64,000 nucleotides of DNA from Hexactinellida sp. DTS-2022 (taxonomy: Eukaryota > Porifera > Hexactinellida), in contig JAPNXP010000014.1 of the NCBI GenBank assembly GCA_028753945.1, forward strand, positions 2,604,001 through 2,668,000, written 5' to 3'. Shown here piece by piece: positions 11,073 through 59,023 of this stretch (its first letter is position 1; the number at the start of each line of letters is the position of its first letter). The position numbers and the translations under genes are program-made. Below the pieces are notes generated by a model. That model saw nothing but the letters and a program-made list of their open reading frames with translations. It made no database searches and had not been told where the DNA came from.

Positions 11073-12098
11073 TTACGGAGGCTTCGGATGAGTGTTATAT
11101 TGCCAGACATAAATGCATACTGCCGCCGATTGATTAGGTAGCGGAGTAACCCAAGGCTTATCGGTGGAATGGCGCCTAACCTGTTTGATAGGGAGGTGTT
11201 GTCCAATGAGAGAAACCATTGAATTCTGAAAGAATTCGAACCTTGACTGGCAAGTTGATTCAAGGTATATTAGTGTCCAGTCTAAGTTAGAAATGGAATA
11301 TGTTAGAGACTCCTTATCGCGCAGGCTATTCGCCCTCGTGACAAGGGCATTTATTTTTCCCTTCTCAAACTTGAAGGAGAAAGCTGGTTCTAAAATGACT
11401 GCGTTATGGTCGGAATGAGAAGTAGATGCGAGTACAACTGGCTCACAATATAAGGTACTCATATTAGTGAATATCTTGTCAAGTACTGCCCTGCCGCGGA
11501 TTGGCCGTCGGACTACCTGCCTGAGCGGGTAATTCCTCAGGTGGGTGTCGTTAAGTTGGTTAAAATCGCCGATTAGCATAACGCCTGCGTGAGGGTGTTT
11601 TCTAAGGGTGTCATCAACGCCGGCGACAATATGATTATTGGTGATTTAATCGCATGCATTGGGCGGAACGTAAATACCGACAATCAGAATATGTGAGTAT
11701 TGGCGGGGCATACATTTGTCCTCAACCAAGACCCAGAGAGACTCAACTTCATTACACTCCAAATAATCCAGTCTGTCATACGGAATATTTTCTCTAATGT
11801 AGGCTAGCACACCGCCGTCTTTCTTTTCCACTCTGTCCCTCCTCTCACAGGAGTATCCATCGATTGTAGTAATGGATGGAGGGACCGTGTCGGATAGCCA
11901 TGTCTCAGTGACGCCGGCTATATCGACACAGTGGAAATCAAGGAGGTGGATAATTTCTTCTAATTTATTCACCACGCTCCTAGAATTCAAATTCAGGATA
12001 GTGGGAAGATGCCAGTTGGTAGTAGGTATACAGACCAGGTTATTGAGGTTCACTATAAGAAAATGAATTAATACGATTAAGCTTACGCTCAGATACAT
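11073..12098 (-). pseudogene. LINE APE-type endonuclease, decayed
   Basis: Two minus-strand pieces. 11646-12098 holds LNSRSVVNKLEEI, the catalytic glutamate in VTETWLS and the IYVPP strand. 11073-11579 holds GDFNQLND and TSHSDHNAVI, the last two catalytic boxes. The set (N, E, GDFN, SDH) is that of apurinic/apyrimidinic-like endonucleases of LINEs, which nick the target DNA. A stop and frame change separate the pieces. Confidence 0.88.
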
Positions 12099-12260
12099 CA
12101 GTCACGATGACGGGAATAGGTTTCTTCTTCCGTCTGCCTGCTCGCTTCCGTCTGTAGGGGCGGGGCTGGTGTCTCAGGATTCGTCCGGGGTTGAGTGGCG
12201 TATACAAGGGTGTAGAGGCAGTGGCGGAATGAGTCTGTTGGAAAGGGAGAGTAGTAGGGA

Positions 12261-31905: not shown

Positions 31906-34072
31906 TCACTTTGACTGCAACTTTCGTAGCTTTTTATTCGATCTTGTAGGATTGTTTAGGCCACGTTTAGAATTCAAATTTCTTATTTTATTCTTCAATA
32001 AACAATTAGTAGTAACAGAGAGAATTTGAGCCAGATAGTACATAAAAGATTTCTGGCAGTCATGACATTCATTTCTCCAGAATTCGAAACTAACAAATTC
32101 TATTCTTGATATCGCTAATTGAATTAGAACCTTTCTGTCTGATTCAGCAATGAATTGTCTCAACAAAATGGGTTCTGTTCAAGAATAGTAAGTATTTGCC
32201 ATTGAATAGTAACTTCGCTTATTACATCATTGGATGAGTATTTAAGTCCACCCCGGTCAGCTAAGTGAATTAGTTTAAGATCGGACTCTTCACACTCGAG
32301 AGAGAAAATATTCTAGTTCAGTGAGTAGAGATACACAATGATCACAATATATAGTGAATTTAGACTTCTTTGAATAAAGCATATTCTTACAAATGTTCTG
32401 AACTGCATATCCACCAATAATAGCCAATGCTTGGCGGATTTCCACTGTAGGTGAGAATTCAAAATTTTCATGTAGAAGAGAAGAATAAATGTTCAAGTCT
32501 GATTGGCGAACTCCTGCATCCTGTTGAACTGAAAAACCTCAAACGAATTCCTTTAGTGACGACTCATATTTGCCATCTTGGGCTTGGTACAACTTCAGAA
32601 TGTTACCAATCTTGATCCGTCGCTCACTCTCAAGAACTTGACAAAAGGAAACGTTGTATTGGCAACCAGATAATAGCCGTTAAACGCCAAAATGCTTCTC
32701 TAGAGAGTCGTTTTGTAAGAATCCGGTTAACACATAGGAAAATCCACATTCATCGCTGGTCAAATGATTGATAATTTTAGGAATGACTTTAGTAGTGTGA
32801 ATTAAGCTGGTAAAGGTCTGTGGGTTAAGTTTGCAGGATTTTCCTGTACAGCTATGTATTTTCCAGTTCTCAAGCCAAGATCAAAATTTTGCAAGAAATT
32901 CAAAACGTTCATCTTTGTGTTTGAATACTTTGGAATCAGAATCACGTAGACGAATATCTTTAGCAGGACAATGAATGTTGCACATCTTCCAAAATATGGA
33001 TATAAGATCGATAAATTGATGAGTCTGGTTGAAATTTTGTTTCTCTGGTTGAATACAAAGATAGCGTTGCGTGTTGATTGATCCCAAACTGCTAGAGCTA
33101 AGGGTACACTTTGTATCTCAAAGGTTGATGGCCAGACTGCTTGTGAAGTTAACTTGTGGGCTGTCTTAGCATTTGAAAACTCGAACTTGTACAAGTTCCT
33201 GATATCCTGGAAAGAAGCCGTTACTAGTTGATAAGGAAAGGTATTATTGAAATAATCAGTATAGATGGGGAAATAAGCGTGGTAAGGGGATCTTTCTGAT
33301 TTATCCAGTTATTCCGAATACATTTAACAATATGTACTGGATCGAACATCAAGAATATAGCTCGAGTGGGATCTGCTAGGTTCGCAAAACTAAACTGCAA
33401 GTAAGATGAATTAGCTAACGATTTGAATAAACTCACGTTCAACTGGTAATCGTCAGTGCAGATTGTTATTACCTTTAGGCCACAACTTTCGATGTCTATG
33501 ATTACTTGATTAACTACTGGAAGTAATTCAGAAGATTTAGCATTACAACATGGAAGGAGTCTTACAATTTCGGACCATTTCGTGAAGAGACTTGAAATTT
33601 GAAAAGCCAAAACAGTTTTAGCTGGATCCAGGTCAGAAGATTGGCTGACAGACGTGATGGAATCGGGATTAATAAAAGGCGACCAAAGATTCTTCCTCCC
33701 TTGTAGGTATACTTAGACTGTACGTGAATTTCATCAAGTTTTAAAATAACATGTCTTTTGAACTTATCAAAATTCTGGCACTCAACTTTCAAATAATCAA
33801 CAAAATTTGTATCTAAACCAATGTTAGAATAGATTCTTCTGAGTGTTGAAGGATGGGGTAAACTAAGACAATTCAATGATTGCAAATCTGTAACAACCAG
33901 AAGATATTAATTGAGCTTTAAGGGAGAAGACTAATGTCAAGACGTTATGGCCACGTCTTGTTTTCGGCATATCTAAGTTTTCGAGCTGACAGAGAATATA
34001 CGTATTGCAAACGATTAAGTAAAGTTTGAGAATCATGTATTGTGGTGTCTTCGTTACACAGTGGTCCAGCAT
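31906..34072 (-). pseudogene. Decayed P-element/THAP9-type transposase
   Basis: Minus-strand blocks in order. LPHPSTLRRIYSNIG, then HVILKLDEIHVQ with the first catalytic aspartate and YKGGRIFG (33562-33885). Then ITICTDDYQLNVSLFKSL with the second aspartate and FDPVHIVKCIRNNW (33224-33610). Then AHKLTSQAVWPS (32802-33194), LQNDSLEKHFG with the catalytic glutamate and SGCQYNVS (about 32650-32745), and a C-terminal IIGGYAV...CDHC block (32290-32496). This is the P superfamily, related to human THAP9. Frames are broken in several places; an N-terminal THAP finger and termini were not found. Confidence 0.85.
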
Positions 34073-41696: not shown

Positions 41697-42062
41697 CAGT
41701 CTTTGAGTGGGGCCAGTGGGCCCTCTAGCGGATCCCCACGTGTGCTTACTAACGTGAGTAATTCATTCAGTGATAATATCTTTATCTGGATTCCCAACCT
41801 AGTCAATCTCCCATTTGTATTCTTTTTGCCAGATTTGATGTTTGATGGTATTTTAACAGTTCCGGTAATATTAGGGATATGGATTTGCTCAATTGTTCCA
41901 TTAATTAATTGAGTCCTCTTATCAAAATGAGGATTGCCAGTAGTATTGGGTTATCTGCTGAACCAATTTCAAAGACTGTATAATCATTACATCGCCCTCT
42001 TATGAATAATTTGATGCACTAGCAGCACTACTACTATTGACTGGAATATATACAATATATAT
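41697..42062. other. No recognised feature
   Basis: May continue the Helitron interior interrupted at 40992; the plus frame to 41912 has no domain I recognise. Confidence 0.3.
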
Positions 42063-42070
42063 GCTCAAAT

Positions 42071-42192
42071 CAGAGGCGGCGCCAGGATTTTCAGGTAGGG
42101 AGATTTGGGGGGCCCACACTGTACAACAATGTTATTCTAGGGGGGGAAGCCTCAAAACAGGGGGGGCCATGGCCCCCCTGGCGCCGCCACTG
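42071..42192. mobile_element. hAT MITE, GGCGGCGC family
   Basis: Ends CAGAGGCGGCGCCAGGA and (other strand) CAGTGGCGGCGCCAGGG, exact 8-bp TSD GCTCAAAT (42063-42070, 42193-42200). 122 bp with G-rich runs. Confidence 0.94.
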
Positions 42193-42229
42193 GCTCAAAT
42201 ACATTTCATATAGTATTGGTCTATTAGGC

Positions 42230-42840
42230 TAATCAACCGCAGCAAAAAATTATGGTCTCAGCATATCCATTGTTTCACTGTAGAACACTTATACATACAT
42301 GATGATAACATCGTCTCGTGAATTTCGATTTTACAAATATTTTTTGAGATATTTGATTTTTTAGATTTCGCTAATGTTAAATACCCAAGTTGCGCCAACA
42401 TTCCCACAGAAGTGTAAATACAAGATATCAAGTTGAATGTTATTCTATCGTATAGTTCATGAATAGATCTGTGATTTGTCGGGTTGTATAAGCTCTAACA
42501 AAGTTAGAAGTATTTTTTTTTTGATGTTAAAAAAAAATCGGTCAAAAAAGCCCTCTTTTCTTCGATTTTCATGAAATTTCGTAACGATTAGGTCATAAAA
42601 TGTGAAGAATGCATCGAAAAGCTTATACAACCCGACAAATCACAGAACTACTCATAAACTATACGAGAGAAAAGGATTTAACATGATATCTGGTATATAA
42701 ACCTCTGGGCGAATGTTGGCGCAAACTCACTTTGTCCGTTTTGGTCATTTTTTGAAAAATTTGTCATAACTAGGGGTTAATATTAATAAAAAAAGCAAAA
42801 ATACCAAAAATTCTAGTTCTAGACCGATTTTCGAGATTTT
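42230..42840. repeat. Self-complementary dispersed repeat, copy 1
   Basis: Matches the reverse complement of about 54460-55065 over some 600 bp. Each copy is itself a broad inverted repeat around CTGTGATTTGTCGGGTTGTA and its complement. No TSD or coding sequence found; class unknown. Confidence 0.7.
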
Positions 42841-42883
42841 TTTGTGGATCTATATACTACATATATAGAAGTAGTGTTTAAAG

Positions 42884-43446
42884 CAGGGGTGCCCAAACTA
42901 TGAGTCGCGAATCAAATGTGATTCTTTTCCTGAAAAATATGATTCGCGAAACATTTGCTTCTTATTTTAATATACTATAATTTTTGAAAACAGCATTTTA
43001 CTTATTTTATCGTAAATACAATTATTATTGAATACAGTTAAAATTTATGATTCTACAAATATAATTAAGTTATTTCAATATTTTAAATCGTTCGTTTATT
43101 TCTTCCAAAAATCTTTGAGTAACTATTGTAACTTTATTCATGGAAGTCAAGGAAGATTGTGTGAGCGAAAATATATTTTGTTGGTATTTCTTTACAACAT
43201 TTAATGGACTCATTGACAATTTTGTATCCAATTGCAAGCAGTACCAACCATCACATTGATAAGAATTATATATTATTTATTTATTATAATAAATATATTA
43301 GAAATACATTTGATAACACCTGCTTTTTGTTTATTAATATTATTTGTTAATTAGGGGGTTTATGGAACCTCATTGTGGTCTATGATTCGAAAATTATATA
43401 TCATTTGAAATGTGATTCACCACATGAGAAAGGTTGGGCAGCCCTG
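42884..43446 (+). mobile_element. hAT MITE (CAGGGGTGCCCAAAC), inversion breakpoint copy 1
   Basis: Ends CAGGGGTGCCCAAACTATG and (other strand) CAGGGCTGCCCAACC. Left flank GTTTAAAG (42876-42883), right flank CACTACAC (43447-43454): the two do not match each other. They are the exact reverse complements of the flanks at the opposite ends of the inverted copy 56744-57217. 563 bp. Confidence 0.93.
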
Positions 43447-43594
43447 CACTACACAATTGCTAGTTGCAAAGGAATGCATGCATTATTATTTATTCAAATA
43501 GAGAACTTAATTATTATTTTGAATTTTGTATCTACCATTCTAACGATAAATTAACATTCCAAGTAACCATAAATCCATCAATTGTTTGTTGATA

Positions 43595-44084
43595 CAGTGG
43601 AACCTCTATAAGTGGGGGAGCATGGGACGGGGAAAATTCAATTGCCCCCCATTCCCCGGTTATAAAATTCAATTGGAAAAACATTACATATGCTATATTA
43701 TACAAAATATTCATATAACACACACATAATGCACGTTCTAGTTCTTATTTGTATATTATGACAATTTAGTTAAACTGCTGATCTACACTAGGTGATTTCT
43801 TCTAAAAACATCAGAGTAGATCAATTGAAAATATTTTTTCTTTAGAACTTTAGAGTCGATTTATTGGAAATATTGTATTATTTATAAGAATCATGTTAGG
43901 ATTTGTCCATACCCCCATTTATGGAGGTTGTTTTGTATGGAGATAAAAACTCCTTGAAATTTATGGTCCCCCATTCCCCCGCTTATAGAGGTTCATTTGT
44001 ATGGATATAAACGAATATGGTAAAAGATTCCCCACTTATGGAGGTTCCCCATTTATAGAGACCCCACTTATAGAGGTTCCACTG
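43595..44084. mobile_element. pogo-like MITE
   Basis: Inverted ends CAGTGGAACCTCTATAAGTG, flanked by TA (43593-43594, 44085-44086). The TTATAGAGGTTC motif recurs inside. 490 bp. Confidence 0.93.
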
Positions 44085-44154
44085 TAACTAATTACGCAAT
44101 TAAGTATAAATCTGATTAAAATCTGATTCATTCAATCTCACAAAATTCCTACAA

Positions 44155-45566
44155 ATGGCACAAATGATTCCACTATTTCTAGCAGAAGAAGAAGAAAACT
44201 CTTCATCTATGGCACGTCCAAGAATTTTAGGGATATTACTGATCCCTTAGATTGTTATGATGATTTGGAACTTGTTCAACGTTTCCGCTTCTCTAGATCA
44301 TCAATTTCAAGAATCACTGAGTTAATAGCTCATCGTTTAAACTTTACAGATCGTTCCCATGCCGCTCCCCACATTTACAGGTTTGTGTTGCACTTCAGAT
44401 TTTTGCTTCTGGAACGTTCCAGATAATATGTGGAGATGGAGTTAATGTAAGCCAGTCTTCAGCTTCTCGCTATATTCATGATGTTTCACAAGGTTTTCAG
44501 GATATATACAACCAGTATGTTAGTATGCCAAGCTCAGCTGAGAAGGCAGAAGTCAAGAAATTCTTTACGAAATTGCACATTTTCCAGGCGTCCTTGGACT
44601 AGTTGACGGGACACATATACGCATTCAAAAACCATCTGAAAATGAAGTAGATTACGTGAACCGACATTTTTACCACTCAATTAATGTCCAAGTTATATGT
44701 CGATCGGATGGTATATTTAGTGATGTGTTGGCAGTAGCGTAACTAGGTAGGGGCGAAGGGGGCGGCATTTTGACATTTTGTTTACCATTTTTTCTCACAA
44801 TTGCACGAATTACATGCTAATAAATATCTCTTTGAACCATTTCAAGTTAATTTTCCAGGTTTTTTCTTAACGATTGCAGTTGTCACCCGACAACTGGTGG
44901 CAATATATTAGCTGTGTACTTCATTTTTTAAATACACTGTCTCCTGGATGAGTATGATGAGTATATTAGCAAATATTTATGCTTTGTTTGTTTATAAACT
45001 AATTAGTATTTTTTGTTTGTCGGGGGGGGGGGGGGGGGGGGGGCGGAGTTTTTGATGCTTGCCCCCAGCGGCACTTTACCACGTTACGCCACTGTGTGTT
45101 GGCTCGTTTTCCTGGATCTATTAACGATTCTCGCATTTGGAAGCTTTCCCGGGCTGGAATATATGTTGAAAACAACTTATTAATCGGGGAGGACATATTA
45201 GGGGATAGTGGTTACATGCTAAAGCCCTACTTACTGACACCCTATCGACAACCAGCCTCGACTCCCCAATTCAATTATAACTATGCTCATAAGAAAACAC
45301 GTGTTATAATTGAGCAAACATTTGGAAGATGGAAACGTAGATTTCATTGTCTTCATGGCGAACTTCGGATGACTCCAGATAAAGTATGCATGATAATAGT
45401 TGCTTGTGCAGTATTGCATAATATGGCAATTATGTGGAAACAACCTCTATTAGATGACGAATTCTCCAATGTAACTGATCCGAGTGAGCTGTTTGAGGTT
45501 GAGGATACTGGCCATATGGCTGCCAAACATTACCGAGATCAATTCTCCATTCATAATTTCAGCTAA
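44155..45566 (+). pseudogene. Harbinger (HARBI1-like) transposase, split by hAT MITE
   Basis: The ATG at 44155 opens MAQMIPLFLAEEEE. Further blocks: [28 protein letters not shown] with the first catalytic aspartate (about 44595-44635), ARFPGSINDSRIW with the second (45104-45142), and VIIEQTFGRWKRRF with the glutamate (45303-45344). Between the first two blocks sits the hAT MITE 44732-45094, which splits the frame inside its TSD. There is also at least one small frameshift near 44215, so it is inactive. The C-terminal half (45096-45566) is still open. Intact relatives perform cut-and-paste transposition with the Myb-like partner. Confidence 0.9.
44732..45094. mobile_element. hAT MITE in the Harbinger transposase gene
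   Basis: Ends CAGTAGCGTAACTAGGTAG and (other strand) CAGTGGCGTAACGTGGT, exact 8-bp TSD TGTGTTGG (44724-44731, 45095-45102). Contains an uninterrupted run of about 20 G near 45022-45042. 363 bp. Confidence 0.94.
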
Positions 45567-45698
45567 TATTTCAGTAACAGTATTGTATATTGACATATAA
45601 TATTGTTAATACAGTATTATCCGCTTAATAGAGCCACTGTTAATAGATTTCACCGTTTAATTGGGTCAAATTAACCCTGTCCCGAGGTGACTCTAGAG

Positions 45699-46027
45699 CA
45701 GTGGTTCCCAACCTGGGAGGAATTCCTCCCTGGGGAGGAATTTGGCCATCCTCGGGGAGGAATTCCACATAAGTATACTTAGATATATAAATTAAATTTT
45801 CTGGATTACTTTGTCTCACTGAATGAATGATTTAATCACTTGAGTAGTTAAAATACCTAGTAATGATAATATTAACAGTTCTCATGGCAGTATTATTTAT
45901 ACTTCACTTAGTTTTTCAGTTATTTCCAAACCAAAATTCTACATTGTAGTGCTGGGGGGAATTATAGCAAAAATATAGGTTAGGGGGTAATATCCTGACA
46001 TTTTTTGGAAAAGGTTGGGAACCACTG
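45699..46027. mobile_element. hAT MITE between the Harbinger genes
   Basis: Ends CAGTGGTTCCCAACCTGGG and (other strand) CAGTGGTTCCCAACC, exact 8-bp TSD CTCTAGAG (45691-45698, 46028-46035). GGGGAGGAATT repeats inside. Just upstream, 45612-45690 is a one-ended pogo-like fragment starting CAGTATTATCCGCTTAATAG. 329 bp. Confidence 0.93.
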
Positions 46028-47720
46028 CTCTAGAGTCTAAAGGCATTTGAATTAAGTTAGGGATGTAATGCAACATGGCATAATATGTATGGAATGCTAT
46101 TGTATTAGCTTGCTTTATTCTTTTAACTTTAAAAAGAATATTCTCTTTGAAGTTCCTGCGATTTGCGTGCTTGAGAAATATCGTCGAGTACAACTGCATC
46201 GGTTGTTGTTATTGCAAAGTATAAATTAAAGTGAATATTTGAACTCAGCTAAAGAAAATGGAAAAACCTCGAAAAAGTAACTGGTCCAAAGAGGAAGAGT
46301 ATACACTCATTGACGCAATTCAATCCTCTGGTGATTTACTCAGAGGTACTGGGCACTGCGCTGACCTCAATAGGAAGAAGAAATCACTGTGGAGTGATAT
46401 GGTAGGAAAGGTTAACTCGATCCATGGCAACAATAGAGATGTTAAAGACTTGAAGAAAAAATGGAATAATTTCAAGGGAGCTGCAAAGTCTCATGTGGCT
46501 AGTGGTCGTCGAGAATCAAGACAGACAGGAGGAGGACCAAATGCAGTTGGATAGATAAATGACGAGGATATAATTATCCCTTTCTGCTGACAAAGACTTG
46601 TCAACCACTGCAACGGAGAGGGTAACTGATATGCTAGAGGGTACACCAGCATTTAGTGGAATTACGGGTAGTGTTTTGACGAAAATGGCCCCCCCTACGA
46701 AAATGATCCGGGGAGACCATTTTCGTCAAATTTAACGAAAATGGCCCCCCCCCCTAATGCTTTTAGATAAATTTATGTTACATCATTGTGGTATGAAATC
46801 CTAGTAGTGCATAGTTCTTTTTCCCATTTATTGTATAATAAATTTATGTTATACTTATTGTGGTATGAAAGCCTACAAGTTTATAGTTCTGTTTTGACAT
46901 ATTTGTTCCTGATACAAATTGGTTATTTAACAAATTAGTTACGGCCTAAATTTAGTGTAAATCATTTCTATGGGTTTGTCTATTCCATAGCAAATTAGTT
47001 CCGGCTAAATTTAGAGCAGTAATCACACTTAGACGGTTTCCATATGCTCACTTAATTAAGTACCACTTCTTCAAACCTAATGTCAAAAATAAGTAGTAGA
47101 TAAAATACAAATATATTTTTTATGCAAATTATTGCAAATAGGGGTTAGAACCGGATATAATTATGAAATTGAATCCGGAAATTTTTTCAAAATGCCAGGG
47201 TTCAATACTTCATTGGATAATAGTTTTTCTATTTTAATTAATTGACATGACAACAGTTAGAATACTGAAACAACCCAGCAAAGCGGTCTCGTTTACTCAT
47301 TGTATTATTATTAGTTGTTTCAACTTAACAGCAAACATTGCACCCACCCAATATACATTATTGACAATGATATGTAACTGGATATGTTACTGATATACGT
47401 ACTATACTAATAATAGTGACTAAATTATGTTAATCTTTGATGATGAGAATAAATCTCGCCCCAATAATTTCTGAAATCGCCGCCTATGCTTATTTACCTA
47501 TTTTTCAAATTTTTGTCAAAGACAACAACAAATATGAATTTCCAGATTCTAAATTCGAAATCATCATACTTGTTACCTATTAAACCCGTTGGAACTTGGA
47601 AGCTGCCTGCCTCTATGTGCATTTCGAATTTATAAACTTTTTTATTATTTTGTAACAGCAACAATAAATAGTGGACTCCCCAGTTATAACGAAAACGGAT
47701 ATAACGAGAGATAATGAATA

Positions 47721-47914
47721 CAGTCAGGTCTGCTTATTATGAACAAGATTTCGTTTGCTTAATATGAAGATTTTTTATTATGAACAAATCCTACGGTCCC
47801 AATTTAACAACTTACATAGGGTTTGTATTAAGTGGAGTTCGCTTATTATGAAGTCTCTCTATTATGAACACAATTTTTGGTCCCTTAAATGTTCATAATA
47901 AAAGAACCTGACTG
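47721..47914. mobile_element. pogo-like MITE, TTATTATGAAC family, copy 2
   Basis: Ends CAGTCAGGTCTGCTTATTAT and (other strand) CAGTCAGGTTCTTTTATTAT, flanked by TA. 194 bp, identical in length and nearly in sequence to 17568-17761. Inserted in Ginger. Confidence 0.94.
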
Positions 47915-47993
47915 TATAATGAAAATAGTTCTTAGTTCCATATACGTAATACTACAGTTTGACGTTTCAATTTATTGAATAATAAAGAAATGA

Positions 47994-48944
47994 TTATAAA
48001 CAATTATTTTTTGTTATATTTGTAAGAAGATGAATAATAATATTTACGCGGCCTATAAAGTTCATCTCTCTATTTTCAAGTTTGTTTAATTTTGGCCTTT
48101 CCATCCCATCATACGAGTACCAAATACCCTCATGTCTAACTCTCATGCAAAAATGTATTCCCATGTGGATAGTAAAGCCGAGTAGTGAGTAGTGCAACGC
48201 ATTATCTTTATGTGGGATCGAAATCGTGCCATTGGGCATGTATTAACAAATTCAATTCCATGAATATAGCCACCCCAAGTAACACACAAATCCTCCAGGG
48301 AGTTGTTCGATGGAAAAGGTGCGTTAACAAAAAGTTGCGGCTGGGTTAACTCCTTTTCAGGTTGAGGACCGTTTATCATCATTTCAGACAAAACTGGGTA
48401 TAGAACCTTTGTAGTGTAATCCATGCTTTTTTGTTGCCAATGTGTCGTAAATTCAAAATCATCTTTAGTATATTGGAGCACGGGTATCTTGATTTCAAAG
48501 CTCTCTAAGTACCATTGTATTAGTATTTCAGTCATCTCCTGACTAATGTCAAAATCCATCAAACTCGTTTCAGGTATTTTAGTAGGTGGAAAATGTTCGT
48601 CTCCAATCGAATAGTTTCCTAAAGGAAAAATGAAGTCTTTTATCAAGTTCTCGATGGAATTCGTTGAGTGGAATATTAGTCTTAATGGATTTTATTATTC
48701 GATCTTTCATTGAATTGAGAAATTCGATTACTTCTTCTCGTGATTTACTTGTCACATTGGTTTCAAACGTTGACTCTTCGGCTCCAGTAAAAGGAGACGA
48801 TGGGATCATGATATCTTCATCTGATATTTCTTGTTGGATTTTATGATCGTCTGTTTTGGTATCCAAACGGTGATATTTGCTTAGTGGTACATCTGTGTTT
48901 GTTTTAGGTGGTATTCTGTAAAGTTTAACTTTTGATCTCATCAC
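47994..48944 (-). pseudogene. Ginger C-terminal coding region, protease-like motifs
   Basis: Downstream of the integrase on the minus strand, open stretches run 48579-48944, 48143-48646 and 47994-48239 in changing frames. A WGGYIHGIEFVNTC box and, further on, GIHFCMRVRHEGIWYSYDGM resemble the cysteine and histidine boxes of ubiquitin-protease-like cysteine peptidases; Ginger1 elements are known to carry extra cysteine-peptidase domains. The spacing here is shorter than in a working enzyme. Assignment is tentative. Confidence 0.5.
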
Positions 48945-48962
48945 ACGTCGAGTAGATTTATT

Positions 48963-50470
48963 TCAAAGAATCTGAACATTAGTACGATTCGCTTTAATCA
49001 CAGGGTATGGACCGATCCATTTGTCCTGTAACTTTCCTCCCTTTTTACCCCGATAAACATTTTCAATCAATACATTATCTCCGATCTCAAGTCTAGCGGA
49101 TGCGACTGGGTTTAACTTCTTGTCAAACTGCTGTTTTATAAGTTTTTGAGAGTGCAATAGCTGTTCTCCAGCTTTTTGGCTATTCGACTCTTGGGCTTCG
49201 CACATGAAATCAATTAAGTCTTCAACCTGGTCCTCTCCAGCCCACTGATCTAAGGAAGTTTCTTCGGGGTACTGATATGCCTGGTTTTGTGCTTGTATAG
49301 GTAGTCGAGGCTTTCTGGATCCATGCATCAACTCAAAAGCTGAGAAATTAGTTGTTGCTCGTGGTCTAATATTGATAGAGAACGTAATCTCTTCTAGGAA
49401 AAGAGACCAGTTTTCATTCTTTTCGTTTAATGACTTTACTAGAGCTTGTTTGATGGCCTTGTGAGACGACTCAACTAATCCATTTGTCTGAGGATGGTAT
49501 GGAGTTGAAAAGATTAACTTGGAGTCATAAGTTTTGTGCAGTGCTTGGCATATTTTATTCGTGAATTCAGTTCCATTATCAGGTATTATTCGAATTGGGG
49601 CTCCCTGTCTACAGTATATCGAGTACAATCCTCTTGCAACTTCCGTGGCTTCTTTAGAAATGAGTGGACGGGTTTCTATCCACCTGGTAAAATGATCGAT
49701 CATTGTCAAAATATATTTGTAGCTATTTGATTCGATAAGCGGACCTGTTAAGTCCATTCCCACACGATACCATACTTTAGTAATGATTGGTAACGGTTTC
49801 AAAGGAGTAGTAGGACTTTTCAAGCTCGATTGATTTTTTTGACAGCGAACACATGTAGTAACATACGTTTCGATATCTTTGTACATGCTAGGCCAATAAT
49901 AACGGTCTTTAGCTATGTTACACGAGTATCTAGCACATTGGTGTCCAGCAGTGCTCGACAAAATGAAATTTTGATGGTGGCTAATTAAGCCACCACCTCA
50001 CTTTTTCTGGTTGCTAAAGAATAAACAACGACCGATTTAACAAACCACTGATGACTTAACAAAGTTCTGATGCCGTAAAACAACACTAATATTAGTCACA
50101 AATTATGACACGAAAAATATAATCTACACAAAGTAAAATAATCCACAATTTATGGTAGATTAGTTAAGCCACCAAAGGCAAAATTTGGTGGCTTATATAA
50201 GATTTTTGGTGGCTAACGCCACCAAACCACCTAATTTGTCAAGCACTGGTGTCCAGATTTATCATGAACTTCTTTGAAAATGTCCTCTATGTCACTGCGT
50301 CTAATAACTAATAACTGACATCCTACTAAGGATCTGAAAAGTTTTCCTGCTACAAGTTCGTATCTAGCAGCTTTCTTGCGAATCATTCTTTTCTGTTCTT
50401 TAGTAGAAGGATTCGGGTATGATTTTGAAAGTAGATAATTTGAAATTGATTCATAGTCGATGGAATTCAT
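48963..50470 (-). pseudogene. Ginger integrase-type transposase, split by hAT MITE
   Basis: The N-terminal piece (50249-50470) includes HDKSGHQC, part of the H2C2 zinc-binding module. It is separated by the hAT MITE 49949-50248 from the main piece (48963-49948), which opens with the rest of that module (YYWPSMYKDIETYVTTCVRC). The rve/DDE core follows: GMDLTGP, IRIIPDNGTEFTN and YHPQTNGLVESSHK hold the D, D and E. A C-terminal basic domain includes DKWIGPYPVI. The core is uninterrupted. No gag, protease or reverse transcriptase sequence is present around it, which argues against a retroelement. Confidence 0.9.
49949..50248. mobile_element. hAT MITE in the Ginger transposase gene
   Basis: Ends CAGTGCTCGACAAAAT and (other strand) CAGTGCTTGACAAATT, exact 8-bp TSD GTGTCCAG (49941-49948, 50249-50256). 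GGTGGCTTA-type motifs near both ends. 300 bp. Confidence 0.95.
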
Positions 50471-51385
50471 GGTGATTTGTAAAAGATTCCTAAATGCACT
50501 GTGTTTATTTAGCTATTAGCAAAGCTTTTATGCATGCTGTAATCAACAAGAGTCTACTAACTCCATTTAGTTACTTACGAACAATACATATTCTATAATA
50601 TTCAATAAAATGAAACGTAAATGTGTATTACGTATATGGAATTAAGAACTATGCACTACTAGGATTTCATACCACAATGATGTAACATAAATTTATTCTG
50701 ATAAATGGTTAAAAGCATTAGGGGGGACCATTTTCGTAGATGGGCCATTTTCGTTAAATTTGACGAAAATGGTCCCACCGGACCATTTTCGCAGGGGGGC
50801 CATTTTCGTCAAAACAGTAGTATAGACTTGTTCGAAGGACCATCAAATTCCCTACCTGAAGAACTTGTCATTGAATCAAGTTCCATGATCCTCGACGCAC
50901 CAGAAGTACTTGTAAACAATAGTTCTGCTGTTGGAATACGTACCCGCAAACGTAAGAGGAGCGCCGAAAAATCTTCAGTGAGGTCATTATCAGCCTCTGA
51001 TCTACTTCCTCTACAGCAAGAGTTCTCTGCAAACAAATGGAGGTTTTCTCAGCACAATTAGCCTTAATAGAGGAGGAGAGGGAATACTATCGGCTGAAAA
51101 AACAGAAACTTTTAGAAAAAAACAACTAAAGTAATAATTGTTGAAAATAGAATAATAAACTTCCCCAAAAGTAAAGCAAGTACTACTAGATATATAATAC
51201 AATGTTCTAATTAAACACCAACGTCTCAGGGTCAATAAAATAAAATTCTTATAAGTTAAGTCAACTTAGTAGGTTACTTAAGTTTTGTACTTAAGTATGT
51301 ACTTAAGTATGTACTTAAGTACACACTTAAATCTTAGTGAATACCAATCTTAGTGAATACGACTTAAGTACGTACTTAGTACTTA

Positions 51386-52702
51386 ACGTACATATCGAGT
51401 CACTTTTCTGCTTAACAGATTAGGAATAAATTCTGAATAATTAATTTATTGAATATTATTCAACGAATTAGTCAGCTTCTATGCTGATTAATGGATCCAA
51501 CTTAAAGGGTCAAATTCAACATACTCCAGTTATGCCTCACTCTATCACAGTTGATTTGATTTAACTACAAAGAAAAAAATCATCTCTAGTTTCAAGATTA
51601 TTTAAATTTATAACCACCACTTCCTTTGTGAATTGCAATAAATGCTCATACTCAAACAAGATCTAAAAAGTTTGTCACACAATTGTGTCAGTTTGTAAAA
51701 TGTGGGCTAGGTTCAGAACCTACAAGTTGATAACCATTGGCCACTGCTATTTATGTATATACAATAAATATATAATGGTGTCCTAGTCAACTACGTCATG
51801 GGGTTTTACCATAGGTGCTCTAAATTCCCTAAATAACATTCCTTCATTTTCTAATGCTACTACATCCCTTCATAGCACAAAGATAAGATTATTAAGTTCT
51901 CCAGCAGTCCAAGTGAATAACAGAATAGAAATGTACTTAAATTAACCTCAAGCAATAAACAAATAAGTTTAAATTGCTTGAAGATTACACAACACTACCA
52001 GTTGTACTCAATTTTATCTCTAGCCCTTTATCCTAAAAAGTATCTTTTAGCCTGGGTTTAAACAGTTGAGGGTAACTGTCTACCTGTCCATCCAGAAGAC
52101 ACACAGGCGCACAGACAAAGCAATAAAATGTCCATTAATCCCGTTTTTGTCAACGTAATATCGAGAGCGCTGCAATGCATCTACTTTTTTGGTTTGCAAT
52201 TAATCGACAATTTCTCTTTCTTATTTCAAGAAGTCAAAATGTGAATTATGTCTTCTGGTATTATCAGAACATAAACTTCTCGAAATCACAGAGCCCAAAA
52301 AAGCAATTACGTTTTGATATCACTACTTGACAGAAGTTCTCTTAATGGTCATCTGAAATCTTACTCGAGGCTATTATTTCTCTTTGGAATATATTCGTAA
52401 AATCGAGCAAAACGATCATTAATGCAAACACTAATAGCTGGGCCCTCTCGCAGGATTCTCATCCAACTGGTTAACGATTTAATCTAAGAAATTCAAAGTG
52501 AATCATGGAGAGAGGTGTGTGTATAATATGTAAAGCGCTAGCTTGGGAAGTATTGTGAAAGGAATTTATATCTACTACCAATTGCATTTTATCTAATAAG
52601 GTAATTAATGTAAATTCCCAAATAACATCATGAAGTGAAGAGAAACGTAAATTAAAGAATCTTAAAGTACAATTAAACTTTGCGTTATGTTTCATTAAAC
52701 TA
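51386..52702. other. No recognised gene
   Basis: AT-rich. No frame, terminal repeat or RNA gene recognised; the minus frame at 52471-52713 runs into the next hAT element. Confidence 0.4.
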
Positions 52703-53104
52703 ATTATAATCAAGGTTGAAACCGAATACTGATATATTTGGTTGAACCGAATATTATTTGCCGAATAGTTGATATTTGGTTGCCAACCTGATATATATCA
52801 CAATTCGATATTCGGTCTCCCGACCGAATATTATCAGTATTTGTATTCGGTTGCCGTAACCGAATATTACTGTATTTGGATTCGGTTGACTTAACCGAGT
52901 ATTATTAGTGTTCGTAATCTACAATGTATTATAAAGCCATTAGTAAATGAGCCTAAATCACAAATTAATGTCACGGTATGGTAGAAGATTCCAATTTTTC
53001 GCGGTCCTAATTAATTTATTTCCTAAATAATATTCCAAAAGGAGCGTCTCGCGCTCATGGATAATTCTCAGGTATTCGATTGACGTAGGCAAATATTATC
53101 AGTA

Positions 53105-54023
53105 CAGGTATCCCTCTTTTTACGCGGTAGATGCGTTCCTTGAAAAGCGCGCGTAAAAAGAAATCGCGTAAAAAAAACGTTCTACAGTAGAGCCTCTGAA
53201 CAACGGACACCTTGGGACCGGAACCGTTGTCCGTTATTTAGAGGTCGTCCGCTATTTAGAGGTTGCTTTTCTATTAGACATATGCTAAATAGATAAATAC
53301 GTGCCACGAGGGTTGTCCGTTATTTAGAGGTCCGCTATTTGGAGTGTCCGTTATGGGAGGCTCCACTGTATTCTCATAGTAACACATATTAAACCAATAG
53401 ATGCGTTTCCAAATATTATCAACATCGAATAAAATTTTAAATACCTAGTGTTTAAACACTCAAACCTCCAACATCCGGACCTCTCAGATAGCCAAGGTTT
53501 CCGTGTGTATGTTAATCCCATAGGATTTCCAATATGGGATTTGAATGGAAAGTATTTTAACCTATGGGAATCCTGATAGAAACCAACTTGTGATAATACT
53601 TGGGAATTCCCACAGAAAGGGAATTGTGTTGTGAAGGGAATTAAAATTCCCTTCACACCGGAACCCTACACCTTCGGGTACCTCCCACAACCGGGTATCT
53701 TTAGTGTGTATAGTGAAGCAAATATGTATACATTTTACCAAAAATATATTTGAATGAATTAACTTTATGACAAATACATATCCCTAACTATCTACTATCC
53801 TTAAATAATCATTTTTTGTTTTTTTGGAAATGTAGAACCGCTTTGTTACCACTAAGTCTTAAAAAATATCTAAAATCTCCATAAAAAAGAGAATTAATTG
53901 TATGAAATCATAGATAAACCGCGTAAAACGAGTTGAGGATCGCGTAAAAAGTTTTGGTTATAAAAAATTGCCCGCGTAAAACGAAACGCGTAAAAGAAAA
54001 CCGCGTAAAACGAGGTATTACTG
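53105..54023. mobile_element. pogo-like element, nested
   Basis: Ends CAGGTATCCCTCTTTTTACG and (other strand) CAGTAATACCTCGTTTTACG, flanked by TA (53103-53104, 54024-54025). CGCGTAAAA motifs repeat near both ends. A CACTCAAACCTCCAACATCC stretch at about 53458 suggests a further, unresolved insertion of the 22193-type MITE. Confidence 0.88.
53185..53368. mobile_element. pogo-like MITE, GAACAACGGAC family, copy 2
   Basis: Ends CAGTAGAGCCTCTGAACAAC and (other strand) CAGTGGAGCCTCCCATAACG, TA both sides. 184 bp, nearly identical to 27079-27265 except for a small internal deletion. Innermost of three nested elements. Confidence 0.94.
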
Positions 54024-54224
54024 TATTCGTATTCGGTTGACATAACCGAATATTATCAGTATTCGTATTCGGTAACTCAACTAAATATCAGTATTCGTAT
54101 TCGGTAGGGCAACTATTCATGAATATTGATATTCGGTTCAAGCGGTTTCAACCTTGATTATAATGAATAAAATTCAGTTATTTTCTTTATTAGTAAGAGA
54201 TTAAATGATTTATATTGTATCAGG

Positions 54225-55065
54225 GACTTCTTTAATATAGGGACTGTAAACTTCGTTTTACGGTAAAATTAGCGTAGGCCTAAACAGTATTGTTACTTAT
54301 TGATACCCCTTAATCCGCTAATGCTAGACACAGGAAATGTATTATTGTCGTATAGGAAGTCATATTTTGGGAGTCCAACGGTCATATTGGTTTATCGAAA
54401 ATATTTCCAACGGTCATATTGGTTTATCGAAAATATTTTTTTACTAAAATCGGTCTAGAACTAAATCTTTTGGAATTTTTTTAAAAAATATTAACCCCTA
54501 TTATGACGAAATTTTTCAAAAAATCACTAAAACGGACAAAGTGAGTTTGCGCCAACATTCGCTCAGAAGTTTATATACCAGACATCATGTTAAATCCTCT
54601 TCTATAGTATAGTTTATGAGTAGATCTGTGATTTGTCGGGTTGTATAAGCTTTTCGACGCATTCTTCACATTTTATGACCTAATCGTGACTAAATTCCAT
54701 GAGAATCCAAGAAAAGAGGCGCTTTTTGCCCGAATTTTTTTTTAAACATAAAAAAAAAATACTTCTAAATTTGATAGAGCTTATACAACCCGACAAATCA
54801 CAGATCTATTCATGAACTATACTATAGAATAACATTCAACTTGATATCTTGTATATACACTTCTGTGGGAATGTTGGCGCAAACCCTCTAGGGTATAGGA
54901 ATTTAACATTAGCGAAATCTAAAAAATCAAAAATCAAAAAAAGTATTTGTCAAATCGAAATTTCAATGGTTGTTTCATCATATACTATGTATAAGTGTTC
55001 TACAGTAAAACAATGGACAAACTGAGACCATAATTTTTTGCTGAAATTGATTAGCCATATATGGA
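54225..55065 (+). repeat. Dispersed repeat pair: copy of 1-224 joined to copy of 42230-42840
   Basis: 54225-54430 starts CAGGGACTTCTTTAATATAG and matches 1-224 inverted. 54370-54440 doubles a 32-bp piece (CCAACGGTCATATTGG...). From about 54460 it matches 42230-42840 inverted, including the CTGTGATTTGTCGGGTTGTA inverted pair. No partner terminus or TSD found. Confidence 0.65.
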
Positions 55066-55413
55066 GATTCTGAACAAGTTGACTATCTCGAACAATTATA
55101 CCAAGTGATAATTAAGACGGTCCGCATGTGTATAACTAGCTTCAGGAAGCTTGAGTGGAGCCCAACAAGGGATCAGTCGACAGAATGACAAAATTTGAGA
55201 ATGGAATTTCTATGACATTCCCCATCATCAAAGAAATTTCTCTCAAGTGACCACTTGAACGATGGCCAAATTTAATTTATGTTGATTACGAATATCGGCA
55301 AACAAGTTGGATTGAGCAAGCTAGATGAGCTGTAACACCTTTAAAATAAGTCCCCTAAGTTGTAAATTGTGCCTGGCACATTGAATTTTGAAGTTGGCAA
55401 TATATCCAAAAAA
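55066..55413. other. Dispersed repeat fragment
   Basis: About 55190-55310 shares GAGAATGGAAT and GTTGATTACGAATATC with the repeat at about 8390-8580. No gene seen. Confidence 0.4.
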
Positions 55414-55418
55414 CACCA

Positions 55419-56472
55419 CACAGTGGTTTATTTGGACCATTCACAGGAATTAGGTATTTCCAGGTCAGATAGACCTATCAAATGTATTATATACCAATAA
55501 GTTATCGATACCTGTGAATCAATTTATGGACTCAGAAAATTAGTACGGCTTCTTATTTTTAAGTTATGACGTCATAGTATTTTTTAGACTCCCATAGTTT
55601 CCACAAATATTTGCCAAATTTGTATTTTCAAATAAACTAGAGCTAATTAATTTATGTGCAACTCTAAATAAATGCATGGTGTAGATATAAATTAACTTGA
55701 TAATGTAATTCGAGATCCTAGGCCTGTTAAATAACCAGTTTTATTAACATCAACGATTCGACCAGTTTTTCTTGATCCAATTTTGGCATTTGATCACCCT
55801 TGCGTTTTCTATTCCATTACAGCAACCTGTATAGATTCTGCAACCCGTATACTTCTAAATTATTCATTGTAGTTTACTAATAGATGAAATTTCGATAAGA
55901 AAAATTAAAATCTTGGTATATGAATTTTAAAAGCCCCCGTATATAGACAAGTAGATTTTGGTTTGCGCGGGGTTGCGCGGGGTTAGAAAGTGGTTAAAAC
56001 AGAAGTTTATTAGGTCATTATAAGATAAAAACGTGTCTGGGTACACGGCACTTGACGGCACCACAAAATTAGGCACTTCCTAAAAAGGTATATATCTGTC
56101 CGGACTTTTAGTTGAAACATATTTTGTAATGATCCACTACACTTAGAGTTGACGTGATATATATTTGAAACTCAACTGTTTTAGGATGATCTAAGGTACA
56201 ATAATATGTATTGAAAGTCTTAGGTCATAATGAAAGAAGCCTACAGAGAATATGAGCATGATCTAAAGCAAGATTATGAAACCACAAAATTCAAAAATAA
56301 AATGATTCTGTTGTGTCATGATTTGATGCATTATATCTCCTAAACCCTTTCGAATTTTTAGCTGAAATTTATCTTTCCTACGTTTTAGCTTATGCTTAAA
56401 ACGATAAAAATGGTTTAGTGTGATTTGAGAACATTGAAATTTTGCACTACTTCCTGTCAATAAGCCACTGTG
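55419..56472 (+). mobile_element. CACAGTG-ended element (Transib/RAG-like), copy 3
   Basis: Begins CACAGTGGTTTATTTGGACC and ends, on the other strand, CACAGTGGCTTATTGACAGG. Exact 5-bp TSD CACCA (55414-55418, 56473-56477). The terminal repeats share CACAGTGGYTTATT and a CAGGAAKTAG block. 1054 bp, distantly homologous to 30446 and 37462 by internal AGATAG and GTATTAT patches. Non-coding. Confidence 0.8.
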
Positions 56473-56743
56473 CACCATTTGCCTTGAAGAATATCCTACA
56501 AAGTTTGTAATTCTATAAAAGCCTTTTTCGTTGTAAGCGACTGGACTATCGGGAATTGTTGTAAGCTTGACATGAATACAACTTCAGATGCTGCTTCAGC
56601 AGTTCAATTTCGGTTAAATACCAAATATTACGTGGAATTTTGCTTGATATAATCAATCAACATCAGTGAATACTGTTAGGCTAATCAATCTCAGAAAATA
56701 AAGTCAGAAACTATCACTGATTTTACAGTTTATTGCTTTAAAC

Positions 56744-57217
56744 CAGGGCTGCCCAACCTTTCTCATGTGGTGAATCACATTTCAAATGATATATAATTTT
56801 CGAATCATAGACCACAATGAGGTTCCATAAACCCCCTAATTAACAAATAATATTAATAAACAAAAAGCAGGTGTTATCAAATGTATTTCTAATATATTTA
56901 TTATAATAAATAAATAATATATAATTCTTATCAATGTGATGGTTGGTACTGCTTGCAATTGGATACAAAATTGTCAATGAGTCCATTAAATGTTGTAAAG
57001 AAATACCAACAAAATATATTTTCGCTCACACAATCTTCCTTGACTTCCATGAATAAAGTTACAATAGTTACTCAAAGATTTTTGGAAGAAATAAACGAAC
57101 GATTTAAAATATTGAAATAACTTAATTATATTTGTAGAATCATAAATTTTAACTGTATTCAATAATAATTGTATTTACGATAAAAGAAGTAAAATGCTGT
57201 TTTCAAAAGCACCCCTG
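56744..57217 (-). mobile_element. hAT MITE (CAGGGGTGCCCAAAC), inversion breakpoint copy 2
   Basis: Reverse-orientation copy of 42884-43446. It appears identical over several hundred bases but lacks about 90 bp near its CAGGGG end. Left flank CTTTAAAC (56736-56743), right flank GTGTAGTG (57218-57225), mismatched to each other but exact complements of the opposite flanks of copy 1. Confidence 0.93.
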
Positions 57218-57303
57218 GTGTAGTGAAAAATATTCATCAAGATGCTGTGCTTCTTCTAGTAAAACCGTTATAGTAGGGTCCTACTATAGTTTTAGACTAT
57301 AAG

Positions 57304-57618
57304 CAGGGGCGGCGCAGCACAGCCCCATTGGGGGGGCGAAAAGGGGCGGACCAATGCACTGGAGGGGCAAACCCAATAGTTGTAGACATTCCAAAATTCA
57401 CATTCAAACCAAAATCGATATTTTTAATGACAAACTTAGTTAAATAATCTGTCCTATAATAGTTTACGGTGGGGCATCTCAGCAAAACCTCTAATTATGG
57501 ACTGCCTGTCCATCAGTATAGCATTTCCGCATTAACATTAAGTACTCCTATAACAGACAAGCGAAATCCCGCCCCCCCAACAGGGGGGGCGGGCGGCTGC
57601 CCCCCCGCGCCGCCACTG
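57304..57618. mobile_element. hAT MITE, GGCGGCGC family
   Basis: Ends CAGGGGCGGCGCAGCAC and (other strand) CAGTGGCGGCGCGGGGG, exact 8-bp TSD ACTATAAG (57296-57303, 57619-57626). 315 bp with poly-G/C runs near both ends. Confidence 0.94.
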
Positions 57619-57626
57619 ACTATAAG

Positions 57627-58137
57627 TGAATTGAATTCGTTCTGATAGAGTTCCGTCCGGCCGGAAAAAAATATAGAAAATAAAAAATATATATATAGAG
57701 GAAAATATAGAGGTTGTATTCTCCTAAGGATGTTCTTTCTATATATCAATTAAAATGAATAGGTCGCTAATCAATTCTCCGTTTTATTAACGGTTTTCTT
57801 GTACGTAAATCAGCCATCCTCTCCATATTGTAATTGTACTCTTATGGTAGACTGAGTACTATATAATATATTACGTAACTATACTGCTCGATAATGACTG
57901 TTATTGATTGGTTATAGCTTCAAAGTGAATTTGTGTTTCATACAAGTACAATGAAAACACTTGGAACATTTACAGTTGATGATTATGATGTCAATTCTAC
58001 TATTCAAAATAATAAAGTAAATACTTCACTAAGATAAAATGTAATTTAAATATTGAATTATCAATACTACGTTGAATATTACGTATAGAGAATGAACAGT
58101 GTACTATAAATATAATTGAAAAATATAAATTTAATTT
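57627..58137. other. No recognised feature
   Basis: AT-rich; nothing seen. It would be Harbinger 5' sequence if the un-inverted order proposed in the findings is right. Confidence 0.35.
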
Positions 58138-58287
58138 CGTACTTAAGTACGTACTTAGTTAAGTATGTACTTAAATACAACAATATTTCTTAGTGAATAC
58201 GACTTAAGTATGTACTTAACTAAGTACGTACTTAGTACTTAAGTATATACTTAGTACTTAAGTACTAAGTAATCTTAGTGAATACGG
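58138..58287 (-). mobile_element. Harbinger-like terminus
   Basis: Reverse complement begins GGGCCCGTATTCACTAAG and continues in a dense series of ACTTAAGTACGTAC-type palindromic motifs. Matches 36031-36085 and resembles 51285-51385. The flank after 58287 (CTCTATGCACTCC) matches the dispersed repeat at about 8620, which gives an empty-site comparison there. Confidence 0.6.
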
Positions 58288-59023
58288 GCCCTCTATGCAC
58301 TCCGGAGGAAATTAGCCACTAATCTAAAAACCCTGCTAATTAAAGATACGTATTCTACGAATGATATGGCTGTCATTGGTTAGAATCATTGCATCACTCA
58401 CTGACACTCAAATAATCAGTGTTAATAGATTGATTAAATTTTAAAGTCACATTTCGACTGCCAATTTTGCATTATTGGACGAATTATGTAAATTTGCGGT
58501 CAAGACGAAAATTTTGCGTGGTATATGTTAGTTTGAAAAAAAAACCCGAATTACATATGTCCTCATTAGTTTATACTTGGTTTCAAACAATTTGGACCAA
58601 ATTTGCAATTGTTGAACCAAATGTAAATTTATTTTAATTTATTTTTCACACTATTATGAGCGTAATCCGGTGAATTTATAGGATAGCAATCTTTTCGAAA
58701 ATGGTTTCAATTGTTCTTCTAATGGGTTTGCAATAGTACATGGATGTGATTGGAAATTCAGTGCTAAGCTCTAGAGTCAATATTTAATGAGTTATAAATT
58801 TGCTAAATCATCAAAAAGTGGCACATTCCAGTGCCCATATAAGGTCATTTTGAAAACGGCGTGATTTACGGCCATAAAATGTATTATCGCCTGATAGGAA
58901 GTCGGGTATTGCGATCATTTTGCGCTCAAAATTTTATATATTGGTCACCGCTTGTCTGAGATTCAAAATCGAAAAATGGCCAGGACCACCCAATGAGTTG
59001 AAAGGTCCGAAAAGTTTAAATGG
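58288..59023. other. Dispersed repeat fragments, no gene
   Basis: 58288-58310 matches the dispersed repeat at about 8620. 58890-58915 shares a 22-bp stretch with 39632-39655. Otherwise AT-rich without recognisable content. Confidence 0.4.

Follow-up and report, generated by a model that had tools for sequence, protein, structure and literature searches.

The closest described counterparts of the rearrangement reported here are the Galileo inversions of Drosophila buzzatii, namely 2z3 and, seemingly, 2j and 2q7 as well (PMC2775673). According to the accessible part of that report, two class II elements, copies of the P-superfamily element Galileo, lie in opposite orientation at the inversion ends with exchanged 7-bp target site duplications (TSDs), while the targets are single copies in the ancestral order. 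The Galileo inversions are visible on chromosome maps, their ancestral order comes from un-inverted chromosomes, and their proof is provided by chimeric element copies (PMC2775673). In hybrid-element insertion, which starts from one MITE on sister chromatids, the TSD pattern is the same as in ectopic recombination, as far as the excerpted account goes (PMC2775673). When it starts from one site, this process, described for the P element and, as sister chromatid transposition, for Ac/Ds, predicts exchanged TSDs and identical copies (PMC2775673, PMC8225341). Finally, the Ac/fAc elements of maize, which belong to the hAT superfamily, are found at inversion breakpoints with 8-bp TSDs; in the portion of the text available, the TSD is newly made and the intervening piece is lost (PMC8225341).

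Here we describe an inversion of 13 kb in a hexactinellid sponge, located in a 64,000-nucleotide stretch of DNA that was analysed as a whole (the window). It resembles the Galileo inversions in the opposed class II elements at its ends, the exchanged TSDs and the single target copies in the ancestral order, but its elements are non-coding hAT MITEs, ~0.5 kb long and with TSDs of 8 bp, its copies are too alike for chimeras to be read, and its ancestral order is deduced from host repeats split within this one genome. The exchanged TSDs are those predicted by hybrid-element insertion from one site, and a hAT transposase frame is present; in this case, however, the event was unobserved and identity of the copies at birth can only be deduced. 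In contrast to the Ac/fAc inversions, the TSDs are exchanged and nothing is lost. A literature search of titles and abstract openings, with most subscription papers outside its coverage, returned no hAT MITE inversion with exchanged TSDs; the inversion cleanly exemplifies a type of rearrangement that is already known.

The window is free of Ns and contains two hAT-type MITEs in opposite orientation, namely copy 1 and copy 2 (Table 1). Copy 1 is flanked by GTTTAAAG on the left and CACTACAC on the right, and copy 2 by CTTTAAAC and GTGTAGTG, respectively. The two flanks of copy 1, with their order swapped, are the reverse complements of those of copy 2, i.e. the 8-bp TSDs are exactly exchanged. 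Chance was set aside as the source of this exchange, since the probability of agreement over the sixteen bases is ~2e-10; counting the central TA of both sites as given raises it to 6e-8. The sequence-only reading had given these coordinates and flanks, which are exact on rechecking, and had noted that flipping 43447-56743 gives a matched 8-bp TSD at each MITE, as it does.

Each MITE is inserted within an older dispersed repeat, and the inversion cuts both of these repeats in two. The first, X (~720 bp), has one piece on either side of the left breakpoint once the segment is flipped, and the rejoined repeat gives a match over 720 columns at 98.9% identity. The second, Y, is a Harbinger-type element of ~3.3 kb whose pieces run from 51391 to 43447 and from 57218 to 58291; it is collinear with its counterpart L053 across all seven blocks only after flipping. 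On the assembled sequence, the inversion proposed by the earlier reading is strongly supported, since the TSDs are exchanged and the two host repeats split at the breakpoints are both made whole by flipping the same segment. The ends of the window copy of X yield no clean pair that could be its own target duplication, and a search for the inner TIR of the window copy of Y gave no match within 5 errors. An ORF-unrelated match is located at 36018.

Table 1. Positions of the MITE pair, the inverted segment, the split host repeats and the insertions nested in Y within the window.
Feature	Position	Strand	Matching locus or evidence
TSD half a, GTTTAAAG, outer flank of copy 1	42876..42883	+	
hAT MITE copy 1, full length (563 bp), with private substitutions at 14, 17 and 21	42884..43446	+	
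TSD half b, CACTACAC (reverse complement of GTGTAGTG), inner flank of copy 1	43447..43454	+	
TSD half a', CTTTAAAC (reverse complement of GTTTAAAG), inner flank of copy 2	56736..56743	+	
hAT MITE copy 2, 474 bp, lacking element positions 10-98	56744..57217	-	
TSD half b', GTGTAGTG, outer flank of copy 2	57218..57225	+	
Inverted segment, 13,297 bp	43447..56743		Exchanged TSDs and two split host repeats
X left, ~660 bp, internally palindromic, outside inversion	42226..42883	+	L028 980-1638, 98.8%
X right, ~69 bp, same copy, flipped inside inversion	56675..56743	-	L028 1629-1697, 100%
Second copy of X, 87% identical, inside inverted segment, not involved	54446..55059	-	
Y block 1	50818..51391	-	L053 2534-3079
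Y block 2; + strand frame 46243-46554 matches Myb/SANT	46028..46672	-	L053 3076-3734
Y block 3; most of DDE_Tnp_4 frame (45003-45566, + strand)	45095..45696	-	L053 3729-4329
Y block 4; start of DDE_Tnp_4 (44542-44742, + strand)	44085..44732	-	L053 4321-4979
Y block 5, adjoins copy 1	43447..43594	-	L053 4978-5125
Y block 6, outside inversion, adjoins copy 2	57218..57303	+	L053 5118-5203
Y block 7, 81% identical, ends in CTTAGTGAATACGGGCCC	57618..58291	+	L053 5195-5810
Ginger-like element (4145 bp) in Y with termini TGTTTTGACG..CGTCAAAACA and a matched GTAG target duplication of 4 bp	46672..50816		
hAT-like MITE in Y, matched TSD CTCTAGAG	45699..46027		
hAT-like MITE in Y, matched TSD TGTGTTGG	44732..45094		
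mariner-like element in Y, flanked by TA on both sides	43595..44084		
hAT-like MITE in Y, outside inversion, matched TSD ACTATAAG	57304..57618		

The other insertions nested in Y serve as internal controls. Matched target duplications are present in all five, and the possibility that this stretch is generally poor in clean TSDs was rejected on this basis. The frame of the Ginger-like element matches Integrase_H2C2 and rve (Pfam scan, 12 of 34 frames); against PHROGs, this integrase frame finds phage transposases and a single other family, of unknown function, and nothing else. The inverted segment had been described as holding a Harbinger/Ginger nest, which is too simple: the Ginger-like element is nested in the inner part of Y, and the MITE interrupts Y at the point where it inserted.

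The joints were compared with the rest of the genome in whole-genome DNA searches, a match being counted as crossing a junction if it extends over at least 15 bases on either side. Among the matches listed, the junction of the re-inverted empty site A is crossed by 34 of 40 and that of site B by 15 of 47, while the joints as assembled are crossed by none (0/46 and 0/40) and are overrun by at most 6 bases. The counts refer to matches listed, from the best 40 of 89 and 40 of 682 candidates for the re-inverted sites A and B and 40 of 100 and 40 of 419 for the assembled joints, and copy numbers are therefore at least those given. It should be noted that two entries each in the site A and site B lists are the window's own halves, and that most of the site B matches that fail to cross are hits on the mariner-like element with which this query begins.

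The targets are single and free of the MITE in the aligned loci: GTTTAAAG is exact at site A in 8 of 9 (10 given) and GTGTAGTG at site B in 9 of 10. In the locus alignment, which comprises loci from the MITE query and the re-inverted queries with six loci of the window itself dropped, the re-inverted joints are crossed by 9/11 and 8/10 matching loci and the assembled joints by 0/20 and 0/16. This comparison is biased toward the re-inverted joints because its loci were brought in partly by the re-inverted queries; the separate searches with the assembled joints are its fair control. Neither joint shows bases lost or gained, and the ancestral order is continuous over both, as shown by paralogous copies of the host repeats rather than by orthologous chromosomes.

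The MITE family itself has clean insertion sites. Among the 23 further copies detected in the genome, a single one is truncated; the remaining 22 have matched TSDs, always with a central TA, and exchanged TSDs occur in none; a family generally without clean TSDs was rejected accordingly. Most of these copies have the TIRs CAGGGGTGCCCAACCT and CAGGGCTGCCCAACCT, with single differences in the rest. The assignment as a hAT MITE follows from the 8-bp TSD, the TIRs, the lack of coding sequence (the longest frame within copy 1 or copy 2 is 68 aa) and ends shared with a transposase-bearing element, L014. The latter is a 2.6-kb element on C11 with GTGTACAT as TSD on both sides and an unbroken frame of 590 aa (stop to stop), in which Dimer_Tnp_hAT scores 22.8 bits (cut-off 21.4; E 7.9e-05). 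L014 may be the transposase source of the MITE family; a search for solved relatives of its putative transposase gave none at E 0.01.

Copies 1 and 2 agree in 464 of 465 shared columns, the sole substitution being A/C at position 121, and all differences between them, including the three substitutions of copy 1 and the gap of copy 2, fall within the first 121 positions. The earlier description of the copies as identical over several hundred bases is not quite exact, given this substitution, the 5' differences and the deletion; an identity of 100% given by a similarity search is a rounded value. Descent of the 5' end of copy 1 from another subfamily, and the deletion of copy 2 as a subfamily trait, were both rejected: the pattern of copy 1 at 14, 17 and 21 and the deletion of copy 2 are each found once in the genome, even when 2 mismatches are allowed. 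The two copies belong to a young subfamily of six, whose members differ pairwise by 1-3 of 465 bases. The other four (L002-L005) differ from copy 1 by 1-2 of 465 bases, so the identity of the pair lends no support to conversion, and the suggestion that the copies are kept fresh by it is unneeded. A T at position 163 is present only in copies 1 and 2, all 23 others having G, and was found in 2 of 11 matches in a whole-genome pattern search.

Ectopic recombination in the organism between two inverted MITEs is the cause that we favour, with moderate confidence. At first, two hAT MITEs of the young subfamily would have lain in opposite orientation at a distance of 13.3 kb, one (copy A) inserted in X at the target GTTTAAAG and the other (copy B) in Y at the target GTGTAGTG. 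An intrachromosomal crossover between them, i.e. non-allelic homologous recombination, would then have inverted 13,297 bp, swapped the inner MITE halves together with their TSD partners, and parted the halves of X and Y. We infer that both MITEs were in place beforehand, that they recombined by a crossover, and that the inversion arose in the organism rather than during assembly. The T at 163 common to both would then mean that one copy arose from the other by local transposition, or that a conversion tract accompanied the crossover. That nearby siblings can arise by local transposition is supported by a trio on C5, in which neighbours are also closest relatives (48-102 kb apart, with 3-5 differences within the trio and 8-15 to the other five copies compared). 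It is not the rule for all neighbours: a pair on C7, 24 kb apart, has 27 differences in 465 bases. The chimeric structure that such a crossover would leave is unreadable here, since the copies differ at one aligned base and their changes all lie in the first 121 positions, with no variant 3' of position 121.

The sequence-only reading had named homologous recombination as the simplest history. It is the likeliest cause, but hybrid-element insertion gives the same TSD pattern and is a possible, clearly less probable, alternative. In this process, a hAT transposase would join the ends of a single MITE, in X or Y, on sister chromatids in one step, with an outcome that the consulted part of the Galileo report calls 'strikingly similar' to that of ectopic recombination and with identical copies predicted (PMC2775673). 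It directly predicts the T at 163 seen in no other copy. A further point against the crossover is that ~0.07 MITE pairs this close together, in either orientation, are expected by chance among the 25 copies found. A source of transposase may exist in L014, which has the same ends and a putative hAT transposase frame, and alternative transposition of hAT elements is described as causing inversions in maize (PMC8225341). On the other hand, the natural Galileo case that could be resolved, 2z3, is attributed to ectopic recombination in the excerpt considered (PMC2775673). Furthermore, hybrid-element insertion requires all present differences between the copies to postdate the event, namely three changes in 8 bp in copy 1 and, in copy 2, a single change and the loss of 89 bp; for comparison, L002-L005 have 0-2 private substitutions each, and L005 also a 6-bp insertion.

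An assembly error, in which the true order is un-inverted and a 13.3-kb piece was flipped at two inverted repeats, would leave an identical sequence signature, and the assembled letters alone are no bar to it. We nevertheless regard it as unlikely: the window is gap-free, the assembly consists of 18 contigs for 112.4 Mb, and the near-identical stretch common to the joints is 465 bp, shorter than usual long reads. In addition, site A has a unique inner flank (query 216-306), which among the matches listed occurs only at the window, with no second, un-inverted version among them. Finally, reversed-ends transposition between two MITEs of one chromatid, although described for hAT elements in maize, generates its TSD anew and drops the DNA lying between the elements in the part of the report available (PMC8225341), and breakage and end joining beside MITEs would be expected to lose or add bases, whereas both old target sites are complete and X and Y rejoin without loss, so that either is highly improbable.

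Taken together, this small inversion is unusually well documented, in that two independent lines of evidence, the exchanged TSDs and the split and restored host elements, agree to the base; both were obtained from one assembly, with no relative needed. Since the identified content of the segment consists of mobile elements, we claim no effect on the organism. If hybrid-element insertion were the true cause, the shared private base would mark one parent element, and the locus would be a natural inversion by aberrant MITE transposition, told from recombination by the identity of the copies. Haplotypes of the locus could separate ectopic recombination from hybrid-element transposition. More generally, MITE pairs with crossed TSDs, checked against intact host repeats, could list inversions and their ancestral order genome-wide.

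We re-read the two hAT MITEs, copy 1 (42884-43446, +) and copy 2 (56744-57217, -), from the window (G000:C6:2604001-2668000, in a genome of 112.4 Mb and 18 contigs), which is free of N throughout. Both elements and their four 8-bp flanks are as the sequence-only reading had described them. When each element is read in its own orientation, the order is GTTTAAAG-element-CACTACAC for copy 1 and CACTACAC-element-GTTTAAAG for copy 2. Chance was rejected as the origin of these exchanged flanks, its computed probability being negligible. A genome search with the MITE gave 39 matches, representing at least 25 copies, the two window copies included. A perfect 8-bp TSD with central TA is present in 22 of the 23 other copies, the remaining one (L015) having lost its 3' end, and exchanged TSDs were found in none of the 23. 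The other close copies, namely a pair on contig C7 (24 kb apart) and a trio on C5 (48-102 kb), have normal TSDs.

Independently of the TSDs, an inversion predicts that the outer left flank of copy 1 continues into the inner flank of copy 2, and that a corresponding continuity exists at the opposite end. Flanks joined in re-inverted order (43447-56743 flipped back), with the MITE and one TSD left out, were searched against the genome, crossing being defined as at least 15 bases on either side of the joint. At site A, the target in host repeat X, 34 of the 40 matches listed cross the joint (best C1:6088191, 99%). At site B, the target in the Harbinger-type element Y, 15 of 47 do so (best C18:4855146, 98%), and the non-crossing matches listed are mostly just the mariner-like element at the query start. 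The window's own halves account for two matches in each of these lists, and an un-inverted version of the locus was not seen among them. In the genome search with the joints as assembled, none of the 46 and none of the 40 matches listed cross; they reach at most 6 bases past the joint and many start or stop exactly at it. Single, uninserted targets also exist: of 10 loci given for site A, 9 align across it (L038 fails to cross) and 8 of these have an exact GTTTAAAG, with a single change in L039; at site B, GTGTAGTG is exact in 9 of 10 aligned loci. Because the re-inverted joints are matched elsewhere, the assembled joints are crossed by none of the matches listed, and the targets occur single and uninserted, we infer that each MITE once lay within an older dispersed repeat, and 13 kb now separate the two halves of each repeat.

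X is a dispersed repeat of ~720 bp with an internal palindrome. Locus L028 matches its separate halves (42226-42885 at 98.8%; 56743-56675 at 100%) and the rejoined X over 720 columns at 98.9%. X is concentrated on C11 (15.6 of 112.4 Mb), with 27 of the 40 matches listed (40 of 89 candidates scored); matches of the Y query do not cluster there (5 of 47 listed). Two X copies, L034 (C11:4770081) and L036 (C11:3771693), lie ~1 Mb apart; their opposite strands and identical 25-base flanks on both sides suggest an inverted segmental duplication on C11.

Y is about 3.3 kb long. Seven blocks of the window align with its C7 copy (L053 2534-5810), the last at 81% and the others at 93-98%. Block order and strand are simple only once 43447-56743 is flipped. 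Five insertions, all with matched target duplications, account for the gaps between these blocks. The inner blocks contain DDE_Tnp_4 and Myb/SANT domains, which are read from the opposite strand relative to Y's direction as given. Names such as Harbinger, Ginger-like and mariner-like are assigned from domains, ends and TSD length by comparison with those families. The L053 blocks qualify the earlier statement that the inversion holds the Harbinger/Ginger nest: four fifths of Y's blocks are inside, and Y's end is outside.

Coordinates and target duplications of the elements compared
Feature	Position	Strand	Details
Y blocks inside inversion	51391-50818, 46672-46028, 45696-45095, 44732-44085, 43594-43447	-	match to L053
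Y blocks outside inversion	57218-57303, 57618-58291	+	match to L053
Ginger-like element	46672-50816		target duplication GTAG; Integrase_H2C2 and rve domains
Three hAT-like MITEs nested in Y			matched TSDs CTCTAGAG; TGTGTTGG; ACTATAAG
Mariner-like element nested in Y			matched target duplication TA
hAT element L014	L014 501-3141 = C11:4946630-4949270		matched TSD; unbroken 590-aa frame

Thirty-four frames of at least 65 aa overlap 42000-58000, of which 12 (3 + 9) were scanned against Pfam and four match DDE transposase, integrase or Myb/SANT domains. These frames gave no hint of a host gene at either breakpoint, at a length threshold that short-exon genes would escape. Elsewhere in the window, broken frames at 33224-33906 match the TNP-like RNase H N-terminal domain, one scoring 35.9 bits and the next 19.3, below the cut-off. 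Other broken frames, at 10287-12101, resemble a non-LTR retrotransposon and match reverse transcriptase below the cut-off. Further inverted repeat pairs, 37-234/54210-54406 and 28640-29004/63193-63538, are 96-97% and 77-87% alike and lie 34-54 kb apart.

L014 is a 2.6-kb element that shares its ends with the MITE family, and is likely an autonomous relative. Given these ends, its matched TSD and its 590-aa frame, unbroken from stop to stop and containing a hAT dimerisation domain, the family can be classed as hAT MITEs, with L014 as a possible transposase source. Copies 1 and 2 differ at 1 of 465 common bases. Copy 2 lacks element positions 10-98, a deletion of 89 bp that falls in the same region as copy 1's three private substitutions (positions 14, 17 and 21). 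The substitutions occupy an 8-bp stretch close to the 5' end (42897-42904), occur in no other copy and form a pattern unique in the genome by pattern search. Both copies have T at 163, compared to G in all 23 others; in a whole-genome pattern search (at most 1 mismatch), only these two of 11 matches have the T form. Over 465 bases, loci L002-L005 show 1-2 differences from copy 1, 2-3 from copy 2 and 1-2 among themselves, and the subfamily that they form with the two copies has evidently spread recently.

Such an inversion is of a kind known from Galileo in Drosophila, in which ectopic recombination between opposite-orientation elements yields exchanged TSDs (PMC2775673). We consider ectopic recombination between the two MITEs the probable cause; the odds here are judgements and were not computed. 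The inversion would then be younger than both MITE insertions, and the common T at 163 would have arisen by a local hop beforehand or a conversion tract during the event. Local hops are a plausible source of nearby siblings, since the three C5 copies, in a comparison of eight short copies, are closest to one another (3-5 differences, versus 8-15 to the other five). The C7 pair speaks against this: its members, which differ at 27 of 465 bases, are not close. Four pairs of family copies lie within 60 kb, versus 0.32 expected by chance.

Hybrid-element insertion from one MITE, in which the inversion would coincide with one insertion, is less likely, although the common T at 163 fits a single parent element. 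As set out in the Galileo study, insertion from one site has a strikingly similar outcome, but with copies identical and not chimeric (PMC2775673). This distinction discriminates weakly here, because all differences between the two copies fall within the first 121 element positions, making chimerism invisible. An assembly error is improbable, and the remaining explanations together scarcely credible.

Taken as a whole, the sequence carries a real and very clean signature of inversion of the 13.3 kb that lie between the two MITEs. The surprise is small; the interest lies in the quality of the evidence and in the choice between recombination and hybrid-element insertion.
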